Position numbers and translations under genes: made by a program
Shown: positions 6,783 to 61,322 of the stretch, piece by piece
Layout: each line of letters starts with the position of its first letter
Position numbering within the stretch: position 1 is the stretch's first letter
From: Pseudolysinimonas kribbensis
GTDB lineage: Bacteria; Actinomycetota; Actinomycetes; Actinomycetales; Microbacteriaceae
Length of the DNA stretch: 64,000 bases
Assembly: GCF_030161895.1 (NCBI RefSeq)
Contig: NZ_BSVB01000001.1
Span: 3,410,001-3,474,000 of the forward strand
Reading direction: 5' to 3'
The notes under the pieces: generated by a model
The model's database searches: none
Told to the model about the DNA's origin: nothing
Seen by the model: the letters and a program-made list of their open reading frames with translations, nothing else

Positions 6783-8497
6783 ATGACGGATGAACAGCCG
6801 CACCGCACGCCCACCTCGATCGACACGATCGCCGAGGACTGGGTGACCACCCTCATCGATCTCGAGCCCTCCATGGCGGTCTGGCTCGGCCTGCCGGGCC
6901 GGCTCGGCGAATACGGCGACCAGTCGCCGGCCGGGCACGAGGCGCACCTCGCCGCGGCCAAGGACGTGATCGGACGCCTCGAGGACGCCACCGTCGCGGA
7001 TGACATCGACCGGGTGACCAAGACCGACCTGCTCGCCGAGTTGCGCCTCGAGGTCGAGCGCAGCGATGCGCGCCTGCAGGAGCGCGATCTCAATGTGATC
7101 GCGTCGCCGTCGCAGGAGATCCGCGACGTCTTCGACCTCATGTCGCACGAGACGGCGGACGACTGGGCCACGATCGCCGAGCGCATGGGCAACGTGCCGG
7201 GCGCGATCGCGGGCTACATCGAGACGCTGCGCTCGGGGATCGGTCACGGCGTCGTGCCCGCCCGGCGCCAGGTGGCCGAGGTGGCCGCCCAGGCCCGCAA
7301 GCACGCCGACGCGCAGAACGGCTTCTTCGCCGGATTCGCCGCGTCGGCCGAGCTCGAGGGGGCGCGGCGGCGCCGGATGCCGTCGCCTCCGACCTCGCTC
7401 GAGGCGCCCAGGCGGCCGCGCAGGCGTACGGCGAGCTCGCGGAGTTCCTCGAGAACGAACTCGCCCCGAAGGCCGGCGAGCAGGACGGCGTCGGCCGCGA
7501 GATCTACGCGCTGCAGTCGCGGCAGTTCCTCGGTGCGGCGATCGACCTCGACGAGACCTACGAGTGGGGCCTCGCCGAACTGCAGCGCATGGTCGACGAG
7601 CAGACCCGCATCGCCGGCGAGATCCAGTCCGGGGCGAGCGTCGAGGAGGCGATCGCCGTCCTCGACAGGGATGCGAGCCGCAAGCTGCACGGCACGAAGG
7701 CCCTGCAGGAGTGGATGCAGCGCACGGCCGACCACGCGGTCGCCGAGCTGTCGAAGACGCACTTCGACATCCCGGAGCCGGTCAAGGCCCTCGAGTGCAT
7801 GATCGCGCCGACCCAGGAGGGCGGGATCTACTACACGGGCCCGAGCGACGACTTCTCGCGCGCCGGCCGGATGTGGTGGAGCGTGCCCGAGGGCGTCACG
7901 GAGTTCGACACCTGGCGTGAGCTCACGACCGTGTACCACGAGGGCGTTCCGGGTCATCATCTGCAGATCGGCCAGGCCGTCTACAACCGCGCGCAGCTCA
8001 ACACCTGGCGGCGTCAGCTCGCCGGCACGAGCGGTCACGCGGAGGGCTGGGCCCTCTACGCGGAGCGGCTCATGGAGGAGCTGGGCTACCTCGACGACCC
8101 GGCCGATCGGCTCGGCATGCTCGACGGGCAGCGCATGCGCGCCGCCCGCGTGGTGCTCGACATCGGCGTGCACCTGGGAAAGCCGCGCCCGGACGGGAAC
8201 GGCACCTGGGATGCGGACTACGCGCTCGAGTTCATGCGCAAGAACGTCAACATGGACGACGCGTTCGTGCGCTTCGAGGTGAACCGCTACCTCGGCTGGC
8301 CCGGTCAGGCACCGGCGTACAAGGTGGGGCAGCGGATCTGGGAGCAGATCCGCGCGGCCGCGCAGAGCAGGCAGGGCGCCGACTTCTCGTTCAAGCAGTT
8401 CCACAAAGACGCCCTCGACCTCGGCGGCGTCGGACTCGACACCCTCCAGGCGGAGCTGCTGCGGGGTGAGCTCGCCCTGGCAGCGGGTGCTCGGTGA
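6783..8497 (+). CDS. DUF885 family putative metallohydrolase
   Basis: A 571-residue protein, after correction, of the DUF885 family, generally regarded as zinc-dependent carboxypeptidase-like proteins. The signature 'YHEGVPGHHLQIGQAVYN' near 7935-7990 contains the HExxxHH-type metal site, and 'GHAEGWALYAERLMEELGY' supplies the next conserved acidic residue. No signal peptide is seen, so it is probably cytoplasmic. The frame is broken at the G run 7358-7362; one more G gives a Gly-Gly-Ala-rich turn and restores the frame. The ATG start lies 9 bases after the HPr stop. The substrate is unknown; family members are often described as peptidases from sequence only. Confidence 0.87.
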
Positions 8498-53899: not shown

Positions 53900-53905
53900 G
53901 AGTCC

Positions 53906-55603
53906 ATGTCGGCGGGGAGCGACGCGCCCCGTCGCGGCCGCGATCGCGCGCGGCTGCGACGGCGATCCTGGCGAGCCAGATGCTGGTCTCCGCCGCGGTC
54001 CTCGTCGTGGTCGTCGCGATCGTCGTCTTCGCACCGGAGGCCCTCACCCAGCCCGCGATCTTCGCCGGCATCGGCCTCGTCTTCGTGCTCACCGGCGTCG
54101 CGGCGATGGTGCCGTGGGACCTGATCTCGCGACAGTGGCGGGTGCTGATGCCGGTGCTGAACATCCTGGCGATCGGCGCGATCCGCGCGGCCGAGCCGCA
54201 ACTGGGCTCCGGTCTCATGATGGTCTTCCCGGTGATCTGGCTGGCCAGGTCGTTCGCGCTGGTCGAGGTGGTCGGCGGCACGAGCCTGGCGGTCGCCATG
54301 ATCTGGATCAGTCGCGCTCTCTCGCCGACCCCCTGGTCGTCAACGACTTCGCCTCCGTCGTGCTCCTTCCCATCACGCTCGGTTTCGTCTCGACCACGGT
54401 GTACGTCGCGGCGCGGCGCTCGCGCGCGCAGTCGGTGCTGCTGCGGCAGCATTCGCAGCTCATCGAGAACGCGCTGGAGCGAGCGCGCCAGCAGCAGCGG
54501 CTGCTCGACGAGGTGCTCAACACCGTCGACTTCGGCGTGCTGGCCTTCGACCGGAACGGCCAGGTCACCTTCGTCAACCGCACGCAGCGCCGGTGGCTCG
54601 ATGAGTTCGGCGAGCCCAAGACCGTGTTCGTGCATCGCGTCGTCTATCAGGCGGACCGAGCCACCCCTATCCGCAGCAGAACCGTCCGTTCGCCCGCGCC
54701 CTTGCGGGGCAGGAGTTCGACGGCCTCGTCATCTGGGTGGGCGACCCCGGCGGGCGCCGCGCCGCCTACTCAGTGGGATCGCGGGCGCTGCGTGACGCCC
54801 GCGGCGAATACCGCGGCGGCGTGGTCGTCGTCAAGGACGTCACCCGGGAGCTCGACGCCGTCCGGGCGCGGGACGATCTGGTGGGCTCGGTGACGCACGA
54901 GCTGCGCTCTCCGCTCACCTCGATCCTCGGGTATCTCGACCTCGTCCGCGACGCCGACCTCGACGACGAGACGCTCGAGCAGGTCGACGTGGCCGCGAGC
55001 AACGCCGAGCGACTGCTCGTGCTCGTCAACGACCTGCTGCGCGCCGCGAGCGACGCGGACAAGAACCTGCCGATGTCGTTCGTACGAGCCGACGTGGCGG
55101 AGATCGCCCGGGAGTCCGTCGCGTCGCAGCGCATCTTCGCCGAGGACCGCGAGGTCGAGCTCGAGCTCGATGTCCCGGCGTCCGCGACGGCGACGATCGA
55201 TCCGGTGCGCATCCGGCAGGTGGTCGACAACCTCGTCACGAACGCCATCAAGTACAACCGCGAGTGGGGAACGGTCCAGGTGTCGGTGCGCGAGACCGGC
55301 CCCGCGATCACCCTGGAGGTCCGCGACACCGGCCAGGGCATCCCGGACATCGACCTCGCCCGCATCTTCGACCGCTTCTATCGCACCAAGTCGGCCCGCA
55401 ACTCCACGACCGGCGGCACCGGGCTCGGCCTGGCCATCACGCGCGAGATCGTCCAGCGACATGGCGGCGACCTGTCGGTGGAGAGCGAGCTGGGGCTCGG
55501 CAGCACCTTCCGCGTCCGGATTCCGACCGAGCACGTCGCGCCGGATGCGCCAGATCGAGCCATCTCGGCATCCTCGATCGCCCGCCATGGAAAGGCAGCA
55601 TGA
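53906..55603 (+). CDS. Membrane sensor histidine kinase with PAS domain
   Basis: A 566-residue sensor kinase after correction. The N-terminus has about five or six membrane helices (about 25-165; 'MLVSAAVLVVVVAIVVFAP'), then a coiled coil, a PAS-like domain (about 205-320; 'VDFGVLAFDRNGQVTFVN'), the dimerisation H-box 'VGSVTHELRSPLTSILGYL' with the phospho-His, and a HATPase domain ('NLVTNAIKYNREWG', 'VRDTGQGIPDIDLARIFDRF', 'GGTGLGLAITREIVQRHGG'). Breaks near 53952, 54325 and in CCCC 54664-54667 are each fixed by one base. It overlaps the following GGDEF-like gene (ATGA). It is the likely partner of the OmpR-type regulator at 59440-60296, though the two are not adjacent. Confidence 0.88.
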
Positions 55604-56750
55604 AGCTCGACATCACCACCGTCGCCGCCGTCAGCGGGTTCATCGTGATCCTGTGCGGTGTGACGTTCGTGCTGAATACGACCCTGCGCCGCAACGACGC
55701 CGTGGGCCGGATCTGGAGCGTCGCGTTCGTGGCAGGCATCCTCGAGACGCTCGCGTACACGATCGAGGGGCTGCAGCCGTCGGCCTGGTGGGCGATCGCC
55801 GTCGGCAACGGGGCCTTCGTGCTCGCGATCGGGATGCTGTGGTCGGGCCACCGTGCCGCGAACGGACGTCGGCCGCTCACCGCGGTGCCGCTCGGCGTCG
55901 CGGCACTCGTCGCCGCCGCGGTGCTCGCGCGGGGGCGTCCGCCGGCATGTGGGCCGGCGCGGTCGAGATGTTCGTCGCGGCCGCGGTGCTCGCCGGCCTC
56001 GGATTCATCGAGACCCTCCGCGGGTGGCTCAGACGCAGCCTCAACGCCCGGATCGTCGGCATCGCGAGCCTCGTCATGGCGCTGTACTACGCCGCCCGCG
56101 CGGTGCTGCTGCCGCTGCTGGGCCCCTCGGACGCGGTCTTCTCCACGGGATTCGGACCGGCGGAGGCCACCCTCGTGAACCTCGGCCTGATCGTCCTCGG
56201 GACGGTGAGCCTCTCCATGCTCCAGATGGAACGCTTCCGGCGCCCTGGGCTGAACATCCCATCCGACTCGGAAGCCGACGGACTGCTCGCCGATGACCGA
56301 TTCCGGACCCTGGCGGAGGTCTGGCTGCGCCGGGCGATGCGCGACCAGACGACGATCGCGCTCGTGCTGGTCGAGCTCGCCAACATCGACGAGATCAACC
56401 TGGCCTTCGGGCGCGGGCTGGGGGACCACGCCATCCGGGTCATGGGACGGCTGGCGCTCGGCGACGCTCCCGCCGCGTCGCTGGTCGGACGGCTGAGCCG
56501 CCGGCGGTTCGCCGTGCTGTTCCCGATGGACGACGAGGACGACGCGCGCGTCGTCGCCGAGCGCATCAACGGAGACGCTCTCACCTCGCCGATCGACGAC
56601 GCGGACCGGTTCCGTGTCGCGACCTACATCGGCATCACCTCGACGCGAGCCGCCGGATCGCGCTACGACGAACTGCTCGAGACCGCCGAAGCCGTGCTCG
56701 ACCTCGCGATCGACTCCGGCCGCCCCGGCACGATCGAGTACGCGGCCTAA
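55600..56750 (+). CDS. Membrane protein with degenerate GGDEF domain
   Basis: A 383-residue protein after correction. Six or seven membrane helices occupy about 1-200. A C-terminal GGDEF-like domain (about 225-380) is recognisable from 'VLVELANIDEINLAFGRGLGDHAIRVMG' in shape, but the signature is changed: where G-G-D/E-E-F should be, the sequence reads Ser-Arg-Arg-Arg-Phe in 'LVGRLSRRRFAVLFPMD'. Diguanylate cyclase activity is therefore not expected; a sensory or scaffold role is more likely. One base is missing in the G run 55931-55935. It is coupled to the kinase upstream and ends tail-to-tail over the lipoprotein gene (CTAA). Confidence 0.8.
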
Positions 56751-57352
56751 CGCGCCGGGAAGGTCACGGTGACGCTGTCCGACGCGGTCTCCTTGGCGTA
56801 CGTCGACGAGCTGGCCCCGGTCTGCAGCAGCAGCTCGTAGACGATCGAGAAGGTCGCCGAGGTGGCCGACGGGGCGACGGGTGGCACGACGAAGGTCTGC
56901 GAGTAGCTGAACGGCTGCTTGATGAAGTACCCCGGCGGCACCGTCGACTGGTCGACCTGCGCCGCGGGAGCCGGGAGGGCCCCCTTCGGACCCCGCACCG
57001 TCGTCGTCATGGTCACCTTGCTCAGATACACGCCCTGGCCCACGTCGGTGCCGAGCGAGGCGACCGCGGTGAGGCTCAGCGGCTTGTTCGCGTCGGCGTA
57101 CCACCGGCCGATGTCGAGGGTCGAGAAGTAGGTGACGTCGAGCGTGATGTCGCCCGCCTTGAGGGTCCGCTTCGTGGAACCCGTCTGCAGGTCGTTGTGG
57201 ACGACGACGATCCGGGTCGACGTCGGCGACGGTGTCGCGCCTCCGGTCGCCGCTCCGCTTTGATCCCAGGGCGGTGTTCCGCACGCGGCGAGCGCCAGCA
57301 CGAGCGCCGAGCCAGCGGCGACCACGACGATCCCACGTCCCGTCCGCGTCAT
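56747..57352 (-). CDS. Putative lipoprotein, divergent from GT2 gene
   Basis: A 201-residue exported protein with a signal peptide and lipobox 'LALAAC'. The mature part has a Thr/Ser-rich linker, then beta-rich segments such as 'DITLDVTYFSTLDIGRWYAD' and 'SVTVTFPAR' at the end. I recognise no family. I choose ATG 57352 because it starts the signal peptide; an earlier in-frame ATG at 57487 would run through the intergenic repeats. Its promoter region contains the CTTG repeats shared with the GT2 gene, so it may be co-regulated. Confidence 0.7.
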   Translation of the reverse strand: MTRTGRGIVVVAAGSALVLALAACGTPPWDQSGAATGGATPSPTSTRIVVVHNDLQTGSTKRTLKAGDITLDVTYFSTLDIGRWYADANKPLSLTAVASLGTDVGQGVYLSKVTMTTTVRGPKGALPAPAAQVDQSTVPPGYFIKQPFSYSQTFVVPPVAPSATSATFSIVYELLLQTGASSSTYAKETASDSVTVTFPAR

Positions 57353-57382
57353 CCGGCACCCCCGTCCACGACCCCGCTGCGA

Positions 57383-57435
57383 CTTGATCCGATCTTGAGG
57401 TGATCTTGCCGGGGACCAGGCCCGGTCCTTGAGGT
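57383..57435. promoter_or_regulatory. 11-bp periodic CTTG repeats, candidate OmpR-family operator
   Basis: CTTGATCCGAT (57383), CTTGAGGTGAT (57394) and CTTGCCGGGGA (57405) follow each other with an exact 11-bp period, and a further CTTGAGGT lies at 57428-57435. Head-to-tail sites one helical turn apart are the usual target of OmpR-family dimers. The array lies 31-83 bases upstream of the lipoprotein start and 58-110 bases upstream of the GT2 start. Confidence 0.45.
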
Positions 57436-57492
57436 CGCTGCTGAACACTGACTGTAGCGGCCAGGGACAGACCCGGAACCGCGACACGGGGG

Positions 57493-58937
57493 ATGACAGA
57501 CATGACGGACACCATCGCGGCGCCCAAGGCGTACGTGACGCGGGTCGAGCCCGACGCCGACAACGACTTCATCGCCTCCGTCGAGGCTCTCAGCGTCCAG
57601 CGCGCCACCATCGGCTGCATCATCCCGGCCTACAACGAGGGGGAATCGATCGCCCAGGTGCTGGAGTCGCTGCTCGCGCAGTCACGCGTTCCCGACATGA
57701 TCCACGTGGTCGTGAACAACACCACGGATGACACCGTCGCCATCGCGAGCGCCTACGCCGGCCCGCACCGCGTCGTCAACGCCGCACGCGAGCAGTTCAC
57801 CGAGGTCTTCGTCCACGACATCGGCAAGAACCCCGACAAGAAGGTCGGCGCACTCAACTACGGCTTCGAGCTCGTCGAAGGCTGCGACTACCTGCTCGGC
57901 GTGGACGGCGACACGGTCGCCGACGCCGACGCGGTGCAACGCCTCGAGGAGGAGATCGTCAGCGACACGCGCATCGGCGGCATCTCGGCGATCTACACGA
58001 TCGACGACACCCGGATGTCCGGCATGGCGGGCTTCCTGGTCGCCGGCCAGCGCGCCCAGTTCGCGGCCTTCAACATGCAGAACATGCTGCGCGGACGCAA
58101 CATGGCGGTCCTCGGCGGTCAGTTCTCGATCTTCTCGATGAAGGCCCTGCACCAGGCCATGATCGACAACCACCAGTCCACGCCGTGGGTCAAGGACAGC
58201 GAGGTCGAGGACTCGCTCCTCTCGCTGCAGATCAAGAGCGCCGGATATCTCACCAAGATCAGCGCCCGCGCCCGCGCCGACGTCGGCGGCATGACCACGC
58301 TGCGCGGCCTCGATGCCCAGCAGGTCAAGTGGAACTTCGGAGCGATCGAGCTCATGTGGCCCGGTCAGCGCGGCGACACGAAGGGCCAGCCACTGCATCC
58401 GAACCTCCGCCTGCGCTGGCTCGAGAACCTGTCGATGCTCATCAACGGCGTCACGCGTCTGCTGTTCGTCCTGCTGCTGGTGGGGTCGCTGTCGATCCAC
58501 GCGTTCGTGTTCGAGCCGATCTGGCTGATCGCGCCGGCCGTCGCGATCCTGCTCAACCTGCGCATCGCGCTGTCCATGCACCGGCGCGACGCGAAGGACA
58601 TCCTGTTCGCCGCGCTGTTCGTCCCGTCGGAGATCTACATGTGGATCCGGCTGGGCCACTTCGTGCGGGCGTGGAGCAAGTTCCTCAGTCGCAAGCAGGT
58701 CGACAACTGGGCCGCCCAGGCCAAGGCGGAGCGCGGCTCCGGCAGCGCGTTCATCGCGCCGGCGGTCATCGCCGTGCTCGTCATGGCCGTGCTCGTGCTC
58801 GGGTGGTTCCTGCTGCCGGTGATCATCCAGTCGTCGATCCTCTGGGTCGGCTGGCCGATCCTGGGGTCATCACCGCCGTCCAGACGGTCGGGATGCTGTT
58901 CAAGCTCCTGCGCCGCCAGCGCGGATACCGGGTGTGA
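57493..58937 (+). CDS. Processive-type family 2 glycosyltransferase, membrane-bound
   Basis: A 481-residue GT2 after correction, likely making an exported beta-linked polysaccharide from a nucleotide sugar. The soluble GT-A domain (about 35-280) has 'IIPAYNEGESIAQVLESLL', 'VGVDGDTVADADAV'-like D-G-D written in the sequence as LLGVDGDTVADA, the acceptor/base region 'KDSEVEDSLLSLQIKSAGY' (E-D), and 'DAQQVKWNFGAIEL', a Q-x-x-K-W form of the processive Q-x-x-R-W motif. Four or five membrane helices follow. One G is missing in 58863-58866; repair gives 'ILGVITAVQTVGMLFKLL'. ATG 57493 touches GGGGG; ATG 57502 has better spacing and may be the true start. No N-terminal helices or PilZ domain. Confidence 0.86.
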
Positions 58938-59311
58938 CCGCCATGACCTACATGCACATCGACGAGGCGATCGTCGTGCGACTCCTGCGGGAGCTCGCGG
59001 GCGACGTCCCGGCCGGCGTGCGCTTCCTGACCGACTTCGTTCGGGCGTGGGAGGGCCGGGTCGCCCGGCTCCTCGACGCGGCCGAACGACGTGACCCCGA
59101 GGACGTGACCACCGTGTTGCTGAGCGTTCGCACTGCGAGCGGGATGCTGGGAGCCACGGCTCTGTCTTCGGCCGCGAGCGATCTGGAGCACCGGATCGCC
59201 GCAACCCACCAGGTGGACGGACCCGCCGTCCGGCGACTCGTGGAGGTGGGCACCGCCTCCTGCCACGAACTGGCCGACCTGGCCCACCGACTGGAGGCTG
59301 CGCCCGCCTGA
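58934..59311 (+). CDS. Hpt-like protein lacking the phospho-accepting histidine
   Basis: A 125-residue all-helical protein resembling histidine phosphotransfer (Hpt) domains. The motif that normally reads x-H-x-L-K-[GS]-x-[SA]-x-x-L-G-A appears as 'VLLSVRTASGMLGATAL', with Leu at the histidine position but the L-G-A end kept. It is followed by 'SSAASDLEHRIAATHQV', matching the last Hpt helices. Phosphotransfer is therefore not expected by the classic route; it may bind a receiver domain or the GT2. GTG 58934 overlaps the GT2 stop (GTGTGA), so the two are translationally coupled. Confidence 0.65.
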   Translation: MTAMTYMHIDEAIVVRLLRELAGDVPAGVRFLTDFVRAWEGRVARLLDAAERRDPEDVTTVLLSVRTASGMLGATALSSAASDLEHRIAATHQVDGPAVRRLVEVGTASCHELADLAHRLEAAPA

Positions 59312-59326
59312 GAACCCGATCCGTTC

Positions 59327-59366
59327 GCCGCGACCCCCGACGCGGCCCGCCGAATCTAGACGGCGG
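59327..59366. terminator. Twin hairpins between Hpt-like and response regulator genes
   Basis: GCCGCG/CGCGGC (59327-59346) and CCGCCG/CGGCGG (59347-59366, loop AATCTAGA) lie side by side in the convergent gap 59312-59439. They probably terminate transcription from both sides. No T tract is present. Confidence 0.45.
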
Positions 59367-59439
59367 TGACGACTTCCATCCCCCTGGGTCGTCGGACGGA
59401 GCTCAGGCGGGGCGGCCTCCCGTCAGCGTCCTCCGGACG

Positions 59440-60296
59440 TCAGTCGTCGGCGGCGGTGAGGCGGTATCCGACGCCGCGCACGGTCTCGATCCAGCGTGGC
59501 GTGGCGGAGCTCTCACCGATCTTCTTGCGCAGGTTGCCCATGTGCACCTCGATGCCGCGCTTATCCGCCTCGCTCACGAAGTGGCTCGTCACGTAGCTCT
59601 CGCCGCGCAGCAGGAGCGCCAGATCCGCCTTCGTGCGCACCCGCCGACCCGACTGCATGAGCGCGGCGAGCAGCTCGAACTCCGACCGGGTCAGCGGGAT
59701 CTCCTCGTCGTCCACGCGCACGATATGCATCGGCAGGTTGAGCCGGAGGCCGTTGTGCTCGATCCAGCCCTCTGCATCGTCCCGCACAGCCGATCCCGAC
59801 GCGACGGGCGTCCCGTCGGTCTCGGCGCCCGGCTGCACCGGTTCGGTCGACGCGTCGTCAGCGGGGAGAGCGCGGAGGATCCGGCGACCGAGGCCGGGTC
59901 GTCGGGGGAACCGAGCGTCCGCGGACGCCGCAGCATCGCCTCGATCCGAGCGCGCAGTTCGCGGGGCCGGAACGGCTTGGTGATGTAGTCGTCGGCGCCC
60001 GCCTCCAGCCCCTGCAGGGTGTCGATCTCCTCGTCGAGAGCGGTGAGCATCACGATGTAGGTGGAGCTGAAGGCCCGGATCCGCTTCGCGGTCTCGAAGC
60101 CGTCGATCCCGGGCATGTTGACGTCGAGGGTCGTGACGGTCGGGCTGAACGCGCGCACCGCCTCGATCCCGTCCAGCCCGTTCGACCGGGCGACGACCTC
60201 GAATCCGCCCTGGGTGAGGACGGTCTCGAGCAGGTTGCGGATGTCGTCGTCGTCCTCGATCACCACTGCCACCCGACGTGCGTCGCGTTCGGCCAT
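59440..60296 (-). CDS. OmpR-family response regulator
   Basis: A 285-residue response regulator after correction. The receiver domain (about 8-125) has 'VVIEDDDDIRNLLETVL', the phospho-Asp in 'VTTLDVNMPGIDGFETAK', and 'DYITKPFRPREL'. A linker of about 55 residues precedes a winged-helix DNA-binding domain ('IPLTRSEFELLAALMQSGRR', 'VHMGNLRKKIGE', 'IETVRGVGYRL'). One base is missing in the plus-strand GGGG 59863-59866, in the linker. ATG 60296 has AGGAGGAG at 6-base spacing, located in the end of the GH6 gene. It is probably co-transcribed with GH6, and a candidate binder of the CTTG repeats at 57383-57435. Confidence 0.9.
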
Positions 60297-60297
60297 C

Positions 60298-61266
60298 TCA
60301 GTCTCCTCCTGCGATGAGCGCTCGCGCGCCATCCGGCCACCATCGCCCGGCCGCCGGACCGCCGTTGCAGGCGCCGTCGCTCTCGCCCGGGTTCTTGACC
60401 CACAGCGTCGCATCCAGGTGCGTTCGATCCTCGACGACGCGCGGCGGGTCGCCGAGCCCGCGACCGGGCGGATTGCACCACGCCTGGTCGGGCGCGGGCC
60501 CGTTGCCGTTGCGCGAGGTGTCGATCACGTAGTGCGCGCCGCCCAGCGCGGCGCTGATGGCCTCGTCGTACCTGCGCTCCGCGGCGGTCGTCTCGAAGTT
60601 GGAGACGTTGCTCGCGAACCCGCGCACCCGGTCGACCCCGGCATCCCGGAGCAGGCCAGCCATGAGCGCGGGATCGAGCCAGCCGGAGTGACCCGCGTCC
60701 AGATAGACGACGGCGCCCGTCGGGGCGAGCAGACCGACCGCGTCGCGCAGCTGCGCCACCCGCGCCGACCGATCGTGGCACTCGGCGGTGAGGGCGAGCG
60801 CATCCGGTTCGACGACGACGAGGGTCTGCGCCGTCAGCGAGCGTGCGATGGCCCGGAGCCAATCGCGGTATGCGGCGTCATCCGCCGTTCCGCCGGCGGA
60901 CTCCTGCGCCTGGCAATCGCGGTGCGGGATGCCGTAGACGACGAACACGGGCCACTCGCCTCCGCGCCGGGCGGCATCCACGATCCCACCGACGTATCCG
61001 CCCACCTCGGACGCACCATGCGCCTCCGGGGTCAGCCAGATCGCGGCGGGCTCACGGCCGATCGGGCCGAAGGAGGGATCGCGACGGGCGGCGAGCGCCG
61101 CGCTCGAGGCGGGATCGACGTAGAACCGCGCCTCATGCAGCGGATTGGCGGAGGTCGCGCGCGGCACCGTCGCGGAGAAGACCGCGACGCCGGCGAGCCC
61201 GAGGAGAACGGCCGTCAGCACGCCGATGACGAGGCCGACCGCGACCCGACGGGGCGTCTCGGTCAT
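60298..61266 (-). CDS. Glycoside hydrolase family 6 (beta-1,4-glucanase/cellobiohydrolase type)
   Basis: A 322-residue GH6 enzyme that is expected to cleave beta-1,4-glucan. An N-terminal hydrophobic segment ('VAVGLVIGVLTAVLLGLAGV') makes it secreted or membrane-anchored. The catalytic-acid region is 'TLVVVEPDALALT', and 'YVIDTSRNGNGPAP', 'CNPPGRGLGDPP' and 'LWVKNPGESDGACNGGP' are the classic C-terminal GH6 blocks, including the Asp of the base region. There is no carbohydrate-binding module, so it is a compact form. It lies just upstream of the response regulator (2 bases) and 57 bases after bioY. Its grouping with a GT2 recalls the CslA/CslZ pairs of Streptomyces. Confidence 0.88.
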   Translation of the reverse strand: MTETPRRVAVGLVIGVLTAVLLGLAGVAVFSATVPRATSANPLHEARFYVDPASSAALAARRDPSFGPIGREPAAIWLTPEAHGASEVGGYVGGIVDAARRGGEWPVFVVYGIPHRDCQAQESAGGTADDAAYRDWLRAIARSLTAQTLVVVEPDALALTAECHDRSARVAQLRDAVGLLAPTGAVVYLDAGHSGWLDPALMAGLLRDAGVDRVRGFASNVSNFETTAAERRYDEAISAALGGAHYVIDTSRNGNGPAPDQAWCNPPGRGLGDPPRVVEDRTHLDATLWVKNPGESDGACNGGPAAGRWWPDGARALIAGGD

Positions 61267-61322
61267 GCCGTCGCCCTCGTCACGCCGAAGCGCCCACCGT
61301 GCACCGCCCCCCCGTAGGTCGC

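Follow-up and report, generated by a model that had tools for sequence, protein, structure and literature searches.

In the BcsA system, the synthase carries DxD, ED and QxxRW motifs and a C-terminal PilZ domain, and is accompanied by BcsB and the GH8 enzyme BcsZ. SipW/TasA-type matrix operons are known from Bacillus, and plant pseudo-HPt proteins such as AHP6 have the Hpt fold without its phospho-acceptor and are proposed to act as competitors. To our knowledge, the way in which non-filamentous actinobacteria construct a biofilm matrix and regulate it is poorly understood. Here we describe a seven-gene locus of Pseudolysinimonas kribbensis (Microbacteriaceae), located at 53.9-61.27 kb of a 64,000-nucleotide stretch of DNA, hereafter the window, which comprises bases 3,410,001-3,474,000 of a single-contig genome of 3.54 Mb. 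The nearest described system is CslA-GlxA-CslZ of Streptomyces, in which, according to the accessible parts of two reports, a GT2 synthase is likewise linked by its gene to a membrane-associated GH6 enzyme (PMC11022532, PMC9040799).

We consider it reasonably probable that this is an extracellular-matrix locus made of two modules, one for output and one for signalling. The output module consists of a GT2 synthase, a lipoprotein and a GH6 glucanase, nearly always with an OmpR-type response regulator (RR). The signalling module consists of a histidine kinase (HK), a membrane protein with a degenerate GGDEF domain (pseudo-GGDEF), an Hpt-like protein without phospho-acceptor (pseudo-Hpt) and the RR, the first three being optional in GT2 loci. 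No description of this gene set was found in the open-licence PMC literature. The accessible main text of a survey of synthase-dependent operons mentions neither GH6 nor Microbacteriaceae (PMC7112194), and the accessible part of a Caulobacter study holds no precedent for a pseudo-Hpt at a synthase (PMC11481889). Also new here is a direct repeat, CTTG[AC]G-N5-CTTG[AC]G, upstream of the GT2 gene.

Gene content of the locus

The features of the locus are as follows, in window coordinates and with approximate gene starts.

53902..55603, + strand: membrane HK (HisKA and HATPase_c), spread over three frames in the assembly, start approximate
55600..56750, + strand: pseudo-GGDEF membrane protein, with SRRRF at the GGDEF position and one frame break
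56747..57352, - strand: lipoprotein, lipobox LAAC, mature protein beginning CGTPPW, modelled as an arrestin/ApaG-like beta-sandwich
57383..57410, + strand: predicted regulator box CTTGAT-N5-CTTGAG-N5-CTTGCC with an 11-bp period, between the divergent lipoprotein and GT2 genes
57493..58937, + strand: GT2 processive-type synthase with DGD, SEVED and QQVKW motifs and C-terminal helices, its 3' end frame-broken at 58863
58934..59311, + strand: pseudo-Hpt, phospho-histidine replaced by leucine, with a 4-bp overlap with the GT2 stop in the second copy of the region (see below)
59440..60296, - strand: OmpR-type RR with receiver and winged helix (Trans_reg_C), frame break at 59863
60298..61266, - strand: GH6 glucanase with an N-terminal hydrophobic segment, RDC and EPD motifs invariant in 18/18

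A sequence-only reading of the window had listed these seven genes and proposed a GT2/GH6 locus wired to a two-component pair, with the degenerate GGDEF and Hpt proteins as partners of a synthase that has no PilZ domain. All seven genes are indeed present. The GT2 matches PF00535 at 1.2e-15, the GH6 scores 201 bits against a cut-off of 27, and the pseudo-GGDEF matches PF00990 at 40.7 bits with its signature lost. The pseudo-Hpt, at 22.4 bits, falls slightly below its cut-off of 24.6, and no Pfam family matched the lipoprotein. The kinase had been called a PAS histidine kinase; its kinase part is well supported (HisKA 1.9e-14, HATPase_c 1.6e-32), whereas PAS is matched only weakly (PAS_4, 16.0 bits, with a cut-off of 23.1). 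In most relatives the HK is a single open frame of 544-580 aa, and HELR[TS]P occurs in 19/19. The phospho-histidine of the HK and the phospho-aspartate and winged helix of the RR, as in OmpR-type two-component systems, are found in the locus and its relatives, and the catalytic residues of HK, RR, GH6 and GT2 are kept across relatives. The RDC and EPD motifs of GH6 we take to be the site of the catalytic aspartates. For one GH6 catalytic aspartate, support is given in the accessible part of PMC9040799.

Conservation and co-occurrence across genomes

When 150 genomes of the family were searched for the GT2, 20 loci (that of the window among them) matched at about 70% identity or higher, a further two at about 55% and another two at 33-37%. 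Around the 20 loci the order HK, pseudo-GGDEF, lipoprotein (-), GT2, [pseudo-Hpt], RR (-), GH6 (-) recurs with some losses: HK, pseudo-GGDEF, lipoprotein and RR are each present in 19, GH6 in 18 and pseudo-Hpt in 13, one locus ending at a contig edge before the pseudo-Hpt, RR and GH6 genes. In six of the seven loci without pseudo-Hpt, the RR follows the GT2 with no space for it. Because this order recurs in 20 loci from 150 genomes, the gene set is not a chance grouping. In the window and part of the relatives the cassette is flanked by suf genes and an ABC-F gene; other relatives have it at different sites, so that the common order reflects more than neighbourhood inertia.

We also analysed the best 80 of 241 relatives from a scan of named genomes, chiefly Microbacteriaceae with Nocardioidaceae, Propionibacteriaceae and Sanguibacter; these loci overlap those of the 150-genome set, and the two sets are not independent. 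Among 62 GT2 loci with full flanks (at least 8 kb on either side), the RR occurs in 60, a lipoprotein of either subfamily in 60, GH6 in 57, HK in 41, pseudo-GGDEF in 40 and pseudo-Hpt in 27. These counts use score thresholds that we set ourselves, and profiles from which three stop-containing lipoproteins, short HKs and over-long GGDEF open reading frames were excluded. The proposed wiring of a conserved GT2/GH6 locus to a two-component pair is thus borne out, and the most constant companions of the GT2 are the lipoprotein and the RR, which the sequence-only reading had not stressed. GT2 genes regularly occur without pseudo-Hpt (missing from 35/62) and pseudo-GGDEF (missing from 22/62); they rarely occur without GH6.

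The signalling genes also occur without the synthase. When the same 150 genomes were searched with an Hpt profile, 30 gave a match. Thirteen belong to the GT2 genomes, and in the other 17 no GT2 match reaches 55% identity; all of the 17 but G033 were read (16 loci). In 14 of the 16 the Hpt-like gene has an RR of the same family no more than 2.2 kb away, and the stretches analysed contain HK in 10 and pseudo-GGDEF in 7. Two loci (L149 and L158) occupy the window's position between SufT and ABC-F with HK, pseudo-GGDEF, pseudo-Hpt and RR, and without GT2, lipoprotein or GH6. Since the signalling genes are found without GT2, we assign the dead proteins to the regulator set and regard GT2, lipoprotein and GH6 as an optional output. 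The pseudo-GGDEF gene travels with the kinase, not with the synthase. At L148, a short GT2-like piece (74 bits) lies about 8 kb downstream of the pseudo-Hpt gene, between pseudo-GGDEF and a second RR and near a SipW-type cluster; it is perhaps a relic of a polysaccharide output.

Other loci vary in further ways. A second, divergent lipoprotein subfamily stands beside or instead of the first at L117, L121, L132, L136 and other Microbacterium and Nocardioides loci. At L053, where the GT2 homologue has 55% identity, the lipoprotein is matched weakly, another GT2 lies downstream, and there is neither RR nor GH6 nearby. A record titled Stenotrophomonas maltophilia (L112, JACEFY010000146.1) contains an actinobacterial-type GT2/HK/RR locus and is probably contamination.

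The direct-repeat box and SipW-type loci

Once near-duplicates had been removed from 81 GT2 upstreams, 65 remained, and 51 of these carry the box with up to two mismatches allowed; in 50 dinucleotide shuffles the mean count was 3.3 and the highest 8. When spacings of 0-20 were compared, N5 stood out (51 loci), followed by 16 and 17 (36 and 22), peaks that a third repeat would produce. In our genome the exact longer site ATCTTGAGNNGATCTTG occurs at the lipoprotein/GT2 promoter only, twice owing to contig redundancy, and the box is rare elsewhere in 1.5 Mb of loci. In Microbacterium loci it also occurs near lipoprotein genes.

Because the box was read from the GT2 upstreams, loci outside its definition provide a better test. 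The 16 Hpt loci without a close GT2 (238 kb) contain 18 sites at up to one mismatch: nine upstream of the Hpt-like gene (7/16 loci), eight upstream of the first gene for a SipW-dependent-type exported protein (6/6 loci, three of these gene starts having been shifted to an MKK methionine after the box sites were seen) and one elsewhere (L151). The pseudo-Hpt gene is thus often downstream of a box, with GT2 in the window and alone elsewhere. The six SipW-type loci (L148, L150-L153 and L159) have their exported-protein genes beside the pseudo-Hpt/RR pair; the first of these genes match TIGR04089 and TIGR04088 above cut-off. In 3/6 loci the peptidase next to them was tested: it is a signal peptidase I by its score with TIGR02228, which exceeds the cut-off, and falls far short of that of the SipW equivalog model. 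TIGR04089 gave no match in the window genome and none in 14 controls either, so that its absence is not established.

As the box stands at both GT2 and SipW-type loci, the RR probably drives matrix genes, polysaccharide at the former and exported protein at the latter. Half-sites of OmpR-type regulators have an 11-bp period, and this period, the linkage to the RR and the recurrence of the box suggest that the RR binds it.

A second three-repeat CTTG-type box in our genome (G000:C1:1041084-1041111; L160 about 7085-7112, minus strand) precedes a tad/Flp pilus operon (T2SSE, T2SSF, DUF4244, TadE). The tad pilus was rejected as a general second target: 40 genomes were searched, and among the relatives' tad upstreams, from 30 loci, none (0/30) carried the box on the operon strand at up to one mismatch, with one on the other strand.

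The degenerate signalling proteins

Both signalling proteins are degenerate, as had been proposed. In a profile alignment with a solved Hpt (a weak match, E 0.05), leucine occupies the phospho-histidine position of the Hpt-like protein, and a phospho-histidine was found in 0/13 members of the 20-locus set, 0/34 of the overlapping wider set and 0/16 of the further loci. The GG[DE]EF active site was found in 0/19 pseudo-GGDEF orthologues, and the wider set gave no different picture. The arginine position of the RxxD inhibitory site is an invariant proline in the 16 orthologues that were aligned, and a scan of the 19 proteins for RxxD gave two matches, both at other places in the protein.

Our genome encodes one GGDEF protein with an intact signature, elsewhere. 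Proteins with an intact GGDEF motif lie within a few kb of the cassette at L064, L065, L070-L074, L080, L127 and others (Herbiconiux, Cryobacterium, Subtercola), and since such proteins are near the cassette in several loci, an input from cyclic-di-GMP is conceivable. According to the accessible part of PMC5567048, the PilZ-less glucan synthase BgsA can bind cyclic-di-GMP.

Frame breaks and assembly

Several genes are broken in the window: the HK lies over three frames, the pseudo-GGDEF, the RR and the 3' end of GT2 over two, and the neighbouring BioY is also affected, breaks that are consistent with long-read indels. The contig is terminally redundant, its start repeating the window from 42850 onward. 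Over the 24 kb compared, the two copies differ by 16 indel bases and one cluster of six differences. Because the second copy lacks the breaks at 58863 (GT2) and 59863 (RR), these are most likely assembly errors. Those in HK, pseudo-GGDEF and BioY are shared by both copies; a copy difference at 61307 is intergenic and leaves the BioY break unaffected. The HK and pseudo-GGDEF breaks are presumably assembly errors too, given that the genes are intact in relatives, and the BioY break was treated in the same way. An apparent GT2/GH6 paralogue in the same genome was ruled out, the second match being the contig redundancy, and assembly artefact was ruled out as the origin of the signalling proteins' degeneracy, the same changes being present in intact relatives.

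Interpretation and alternatives

In the mechanism we propose, the membrane GT2 would polymerise and extrude a linear beta-glycan, most likely a beta-1,4-glucan, the surface lipoprotein with its beta-sandwich may handle or dock the chain, and the membrane-anchored GH6 would trim the polymer. The membrane kinase would phosphorylate the RR, with the dead GGDEF membrane protein, whose gene adjoins that of the kinase and is probably co-transcribed with it, as an accessory. The RR would then bind the 11-bp-spaced CTTG(A/C)G repeats in the divergent lipoprotein/GT2 promoter and switch the output on, and the pseudo-Hpt, having an Hpt fold and no phospho-acceptor, would probably bind the RR or the kinase as a non-transferring competitor and so provide feedback. 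In some related bacteria, SipW-exported proteins are probably under the control of this signalling set. Gene content, conservation, degeneracy and the statistics of the box are observations; the identity of the polymer, the binding of the RR and the roles of the lipoprotein, pseudo-Hpt and pseudo-GGDEF we infer. More tentatively, HK, pseudo-GGDEF, pseudo-Hpt and RR may constitute a portable matrix-control module of the Microbacteriaceae, using one box for outputs of polysaccharide or SipW-exported proteins; in it the pseudo-Hpt would be a feedback competitor that is controlled by a box and cannot be phosphorylated.

Several findings weigh against the two-module reading. Distant GT2 homologues (55% identity, L053 and L054) have no RR, GH6, HK or Hpt nearby, which argues against an obligatory set. 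The modelled lipoprotein fold (predicted local distance difference test score, pLDDT, 93.6) has a generic match to arrestin/ApaG-like beta-sandwiches (Z about 10, about 3 A, about 11% identity), a likeness at the level of fold that gives no function. The GT2 lies below the cut-off of every named synthase model, the best being PgaC_IcaA (TIGR03937, 52.5 bits against 422.3), and the accessible part of PMC9040799 indicates that GH6 enzymes can cleave other beta-1,4-glycans. As for the box, none at up to one mismatch precedes RR/GH6 or HK/pseudo-GGDEF in the window, and at the thresholds used it is missing from 14/65 GT2 upstreams and 9/16 pseudo-Hpt upstreams. The bare two-hexamer pattern at one mismatch has 24 matches in our genome against 105 for a reversed control, so that single one-mismatch matches mean little. 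The box could be a promoter element and not an RR site.

Another reading concerns the chemistry of the polymer. The GT2 motifs DGD, SEVED and QQVKW are invariant in 20/20 loci (mean column identity 78%), and the best PDB matches of the GT2 model are hyaluronan synthases (E 2.5e-14, TMq 0.58), followed by chitin synthases and BcsA. These matches, the far from sufficient score with PgaC_IcaA, the QxxKW in place of QxxRW and the proposal, in the accessible part of PMC9040799, that the GH6 enzyme CslZ helps to open peptidoglycan in Streptomyces would all suit a hyaluronan-, chitin- or poly-N-acetylglucosamine (PNAG)-like aminoglycan, with GH6 clearing wall material or another beta-1,4-glycan. We regard this as unlikely, if worth serious attention, given the constant pairing with GH6 (57/62), the moderate confidence of the GT2 model (pLDDT 78.6) and the fact that no PNAG deacetylase was recognised among the scanned flanking genes of the window. 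The best matches of the GH6 profile are structures named CelA1/Cel6 (E 1.8e-95), the CelA1 structure presumably being of the M. tuberculosis protein. Cellulose is suggested as the product by one feature, the GH6 gene.

We judge it quite improbable that the direct repeat serves as a promoter element or belongs to a different regulator, with the RR acting elsewhere. One repeat does resemble a -35-type TTGAGG element, and the gaps in the box's distribution at GT2 genes and in the window would be in keeping with this. Against it stand the match of the 11-bp period to OmpR-type half-sites, the recurrence of the box at RR-linked SipW-type and Hpt genes and its rarity elsewhere.

There is a similarly small chance that the pseudo-Hpt, and the pseudo-GGDEF with it, form a physical part of the synthase and gate GT2 in the role of a PilZ domain. 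In 12/13 loci the GT2 gene shares 4 bp with the Hpt gene, as is typical of stoichiometric partners, so that some link to the synthase is conceivable; PilZ was found neither in GT2, as the sequence-only reading had held, nor in our genome (it was found in 5/14 controls). The further proposal of that reading, that the degenerate proteins are synthase partners, is unsupported as it stood: as described above, both are often missing beside GT2, and the pseudo-Hpt occurs in 17/150 genomes without a close GT2, close to an RR in most of the loci read. Finally, loss of catalytic residues and the absence of Hpt from several lineages might suggest decaying relics without function, which is very improbable given the conserved LLSIRSS...LGA-type core of the Hpt-like proteins, the identical His-to-Leu change across the family and ratios of nonsynonymous to synonymous substitution (dN/dS; rough NG86 pairwise values) of 0.06-0.53 for Hpt and 0.13-0.42 for GGDEF; with dN/dS below 1, both proteins evolve under constraint.

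Comparison with known systems

The locus brings together a conserved synthase and its constant partners, a regulator for which a DNA box is predicted, and two signalling proteins that are conserved in a dead form where enzymes would be expected; the RR-box and matrix predictions can be tested in culturable Herbiconiux, Plantibacter, Agreia and Cryobacterium. It departs from the CslA-GlxA-CslZ system in several respects. The genes scanned on either side of the window locus, namely suf genes, BioY and ABC-F, include no recognisable GlxA, no genome-wide search for GlxA having been made; the GT2 has no PilZ match, carries QxxKW and is joined by a constant, unrelated lipoprotein; and the locus has its own RR, HK, pseudo-GGDEF, pseudo-Hpt and box. 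With BcsA the GT2 shares the processive fold and the DxD, ED and Q..W motifs, with K replacing the R of QxxRW, and BcsA structures are among the matches of its model. Unlike BcsA systems, the window locus is without PilZ, has GH6 instead of the GH8 BcsZ and dedicated two-component control, and no BcsB was recognised nearby.

The pseudo-Hpt resembles AHP6 in having an Hpt fold without phospho-acceptor; it differs in being bacterial, in its leucine at the histidine position and in the location of its gene beside an OmpR-type RR and matrix-type genes. Six related loci resemble SipW/TasA operons, with signal peptidase I and SipW-dependent-type exported proteins in the place of the output, and differ from those of Bacillus in being actinobacterial, in their linkage to the RR and box and in a peptidase far below the cut-off of the SipW equivalog model. 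BcsE and PelD are likewise degenerate GGDEF proteins tied to polysaccharide secretion, as described in the accessible parts of PMC7439463 and PMC7112168; compared with what is described there, the GGDEF-like protein of the window has also lost the inhibitory arginine of RxxD, and its gene goes with the kinase in place of the synthase.

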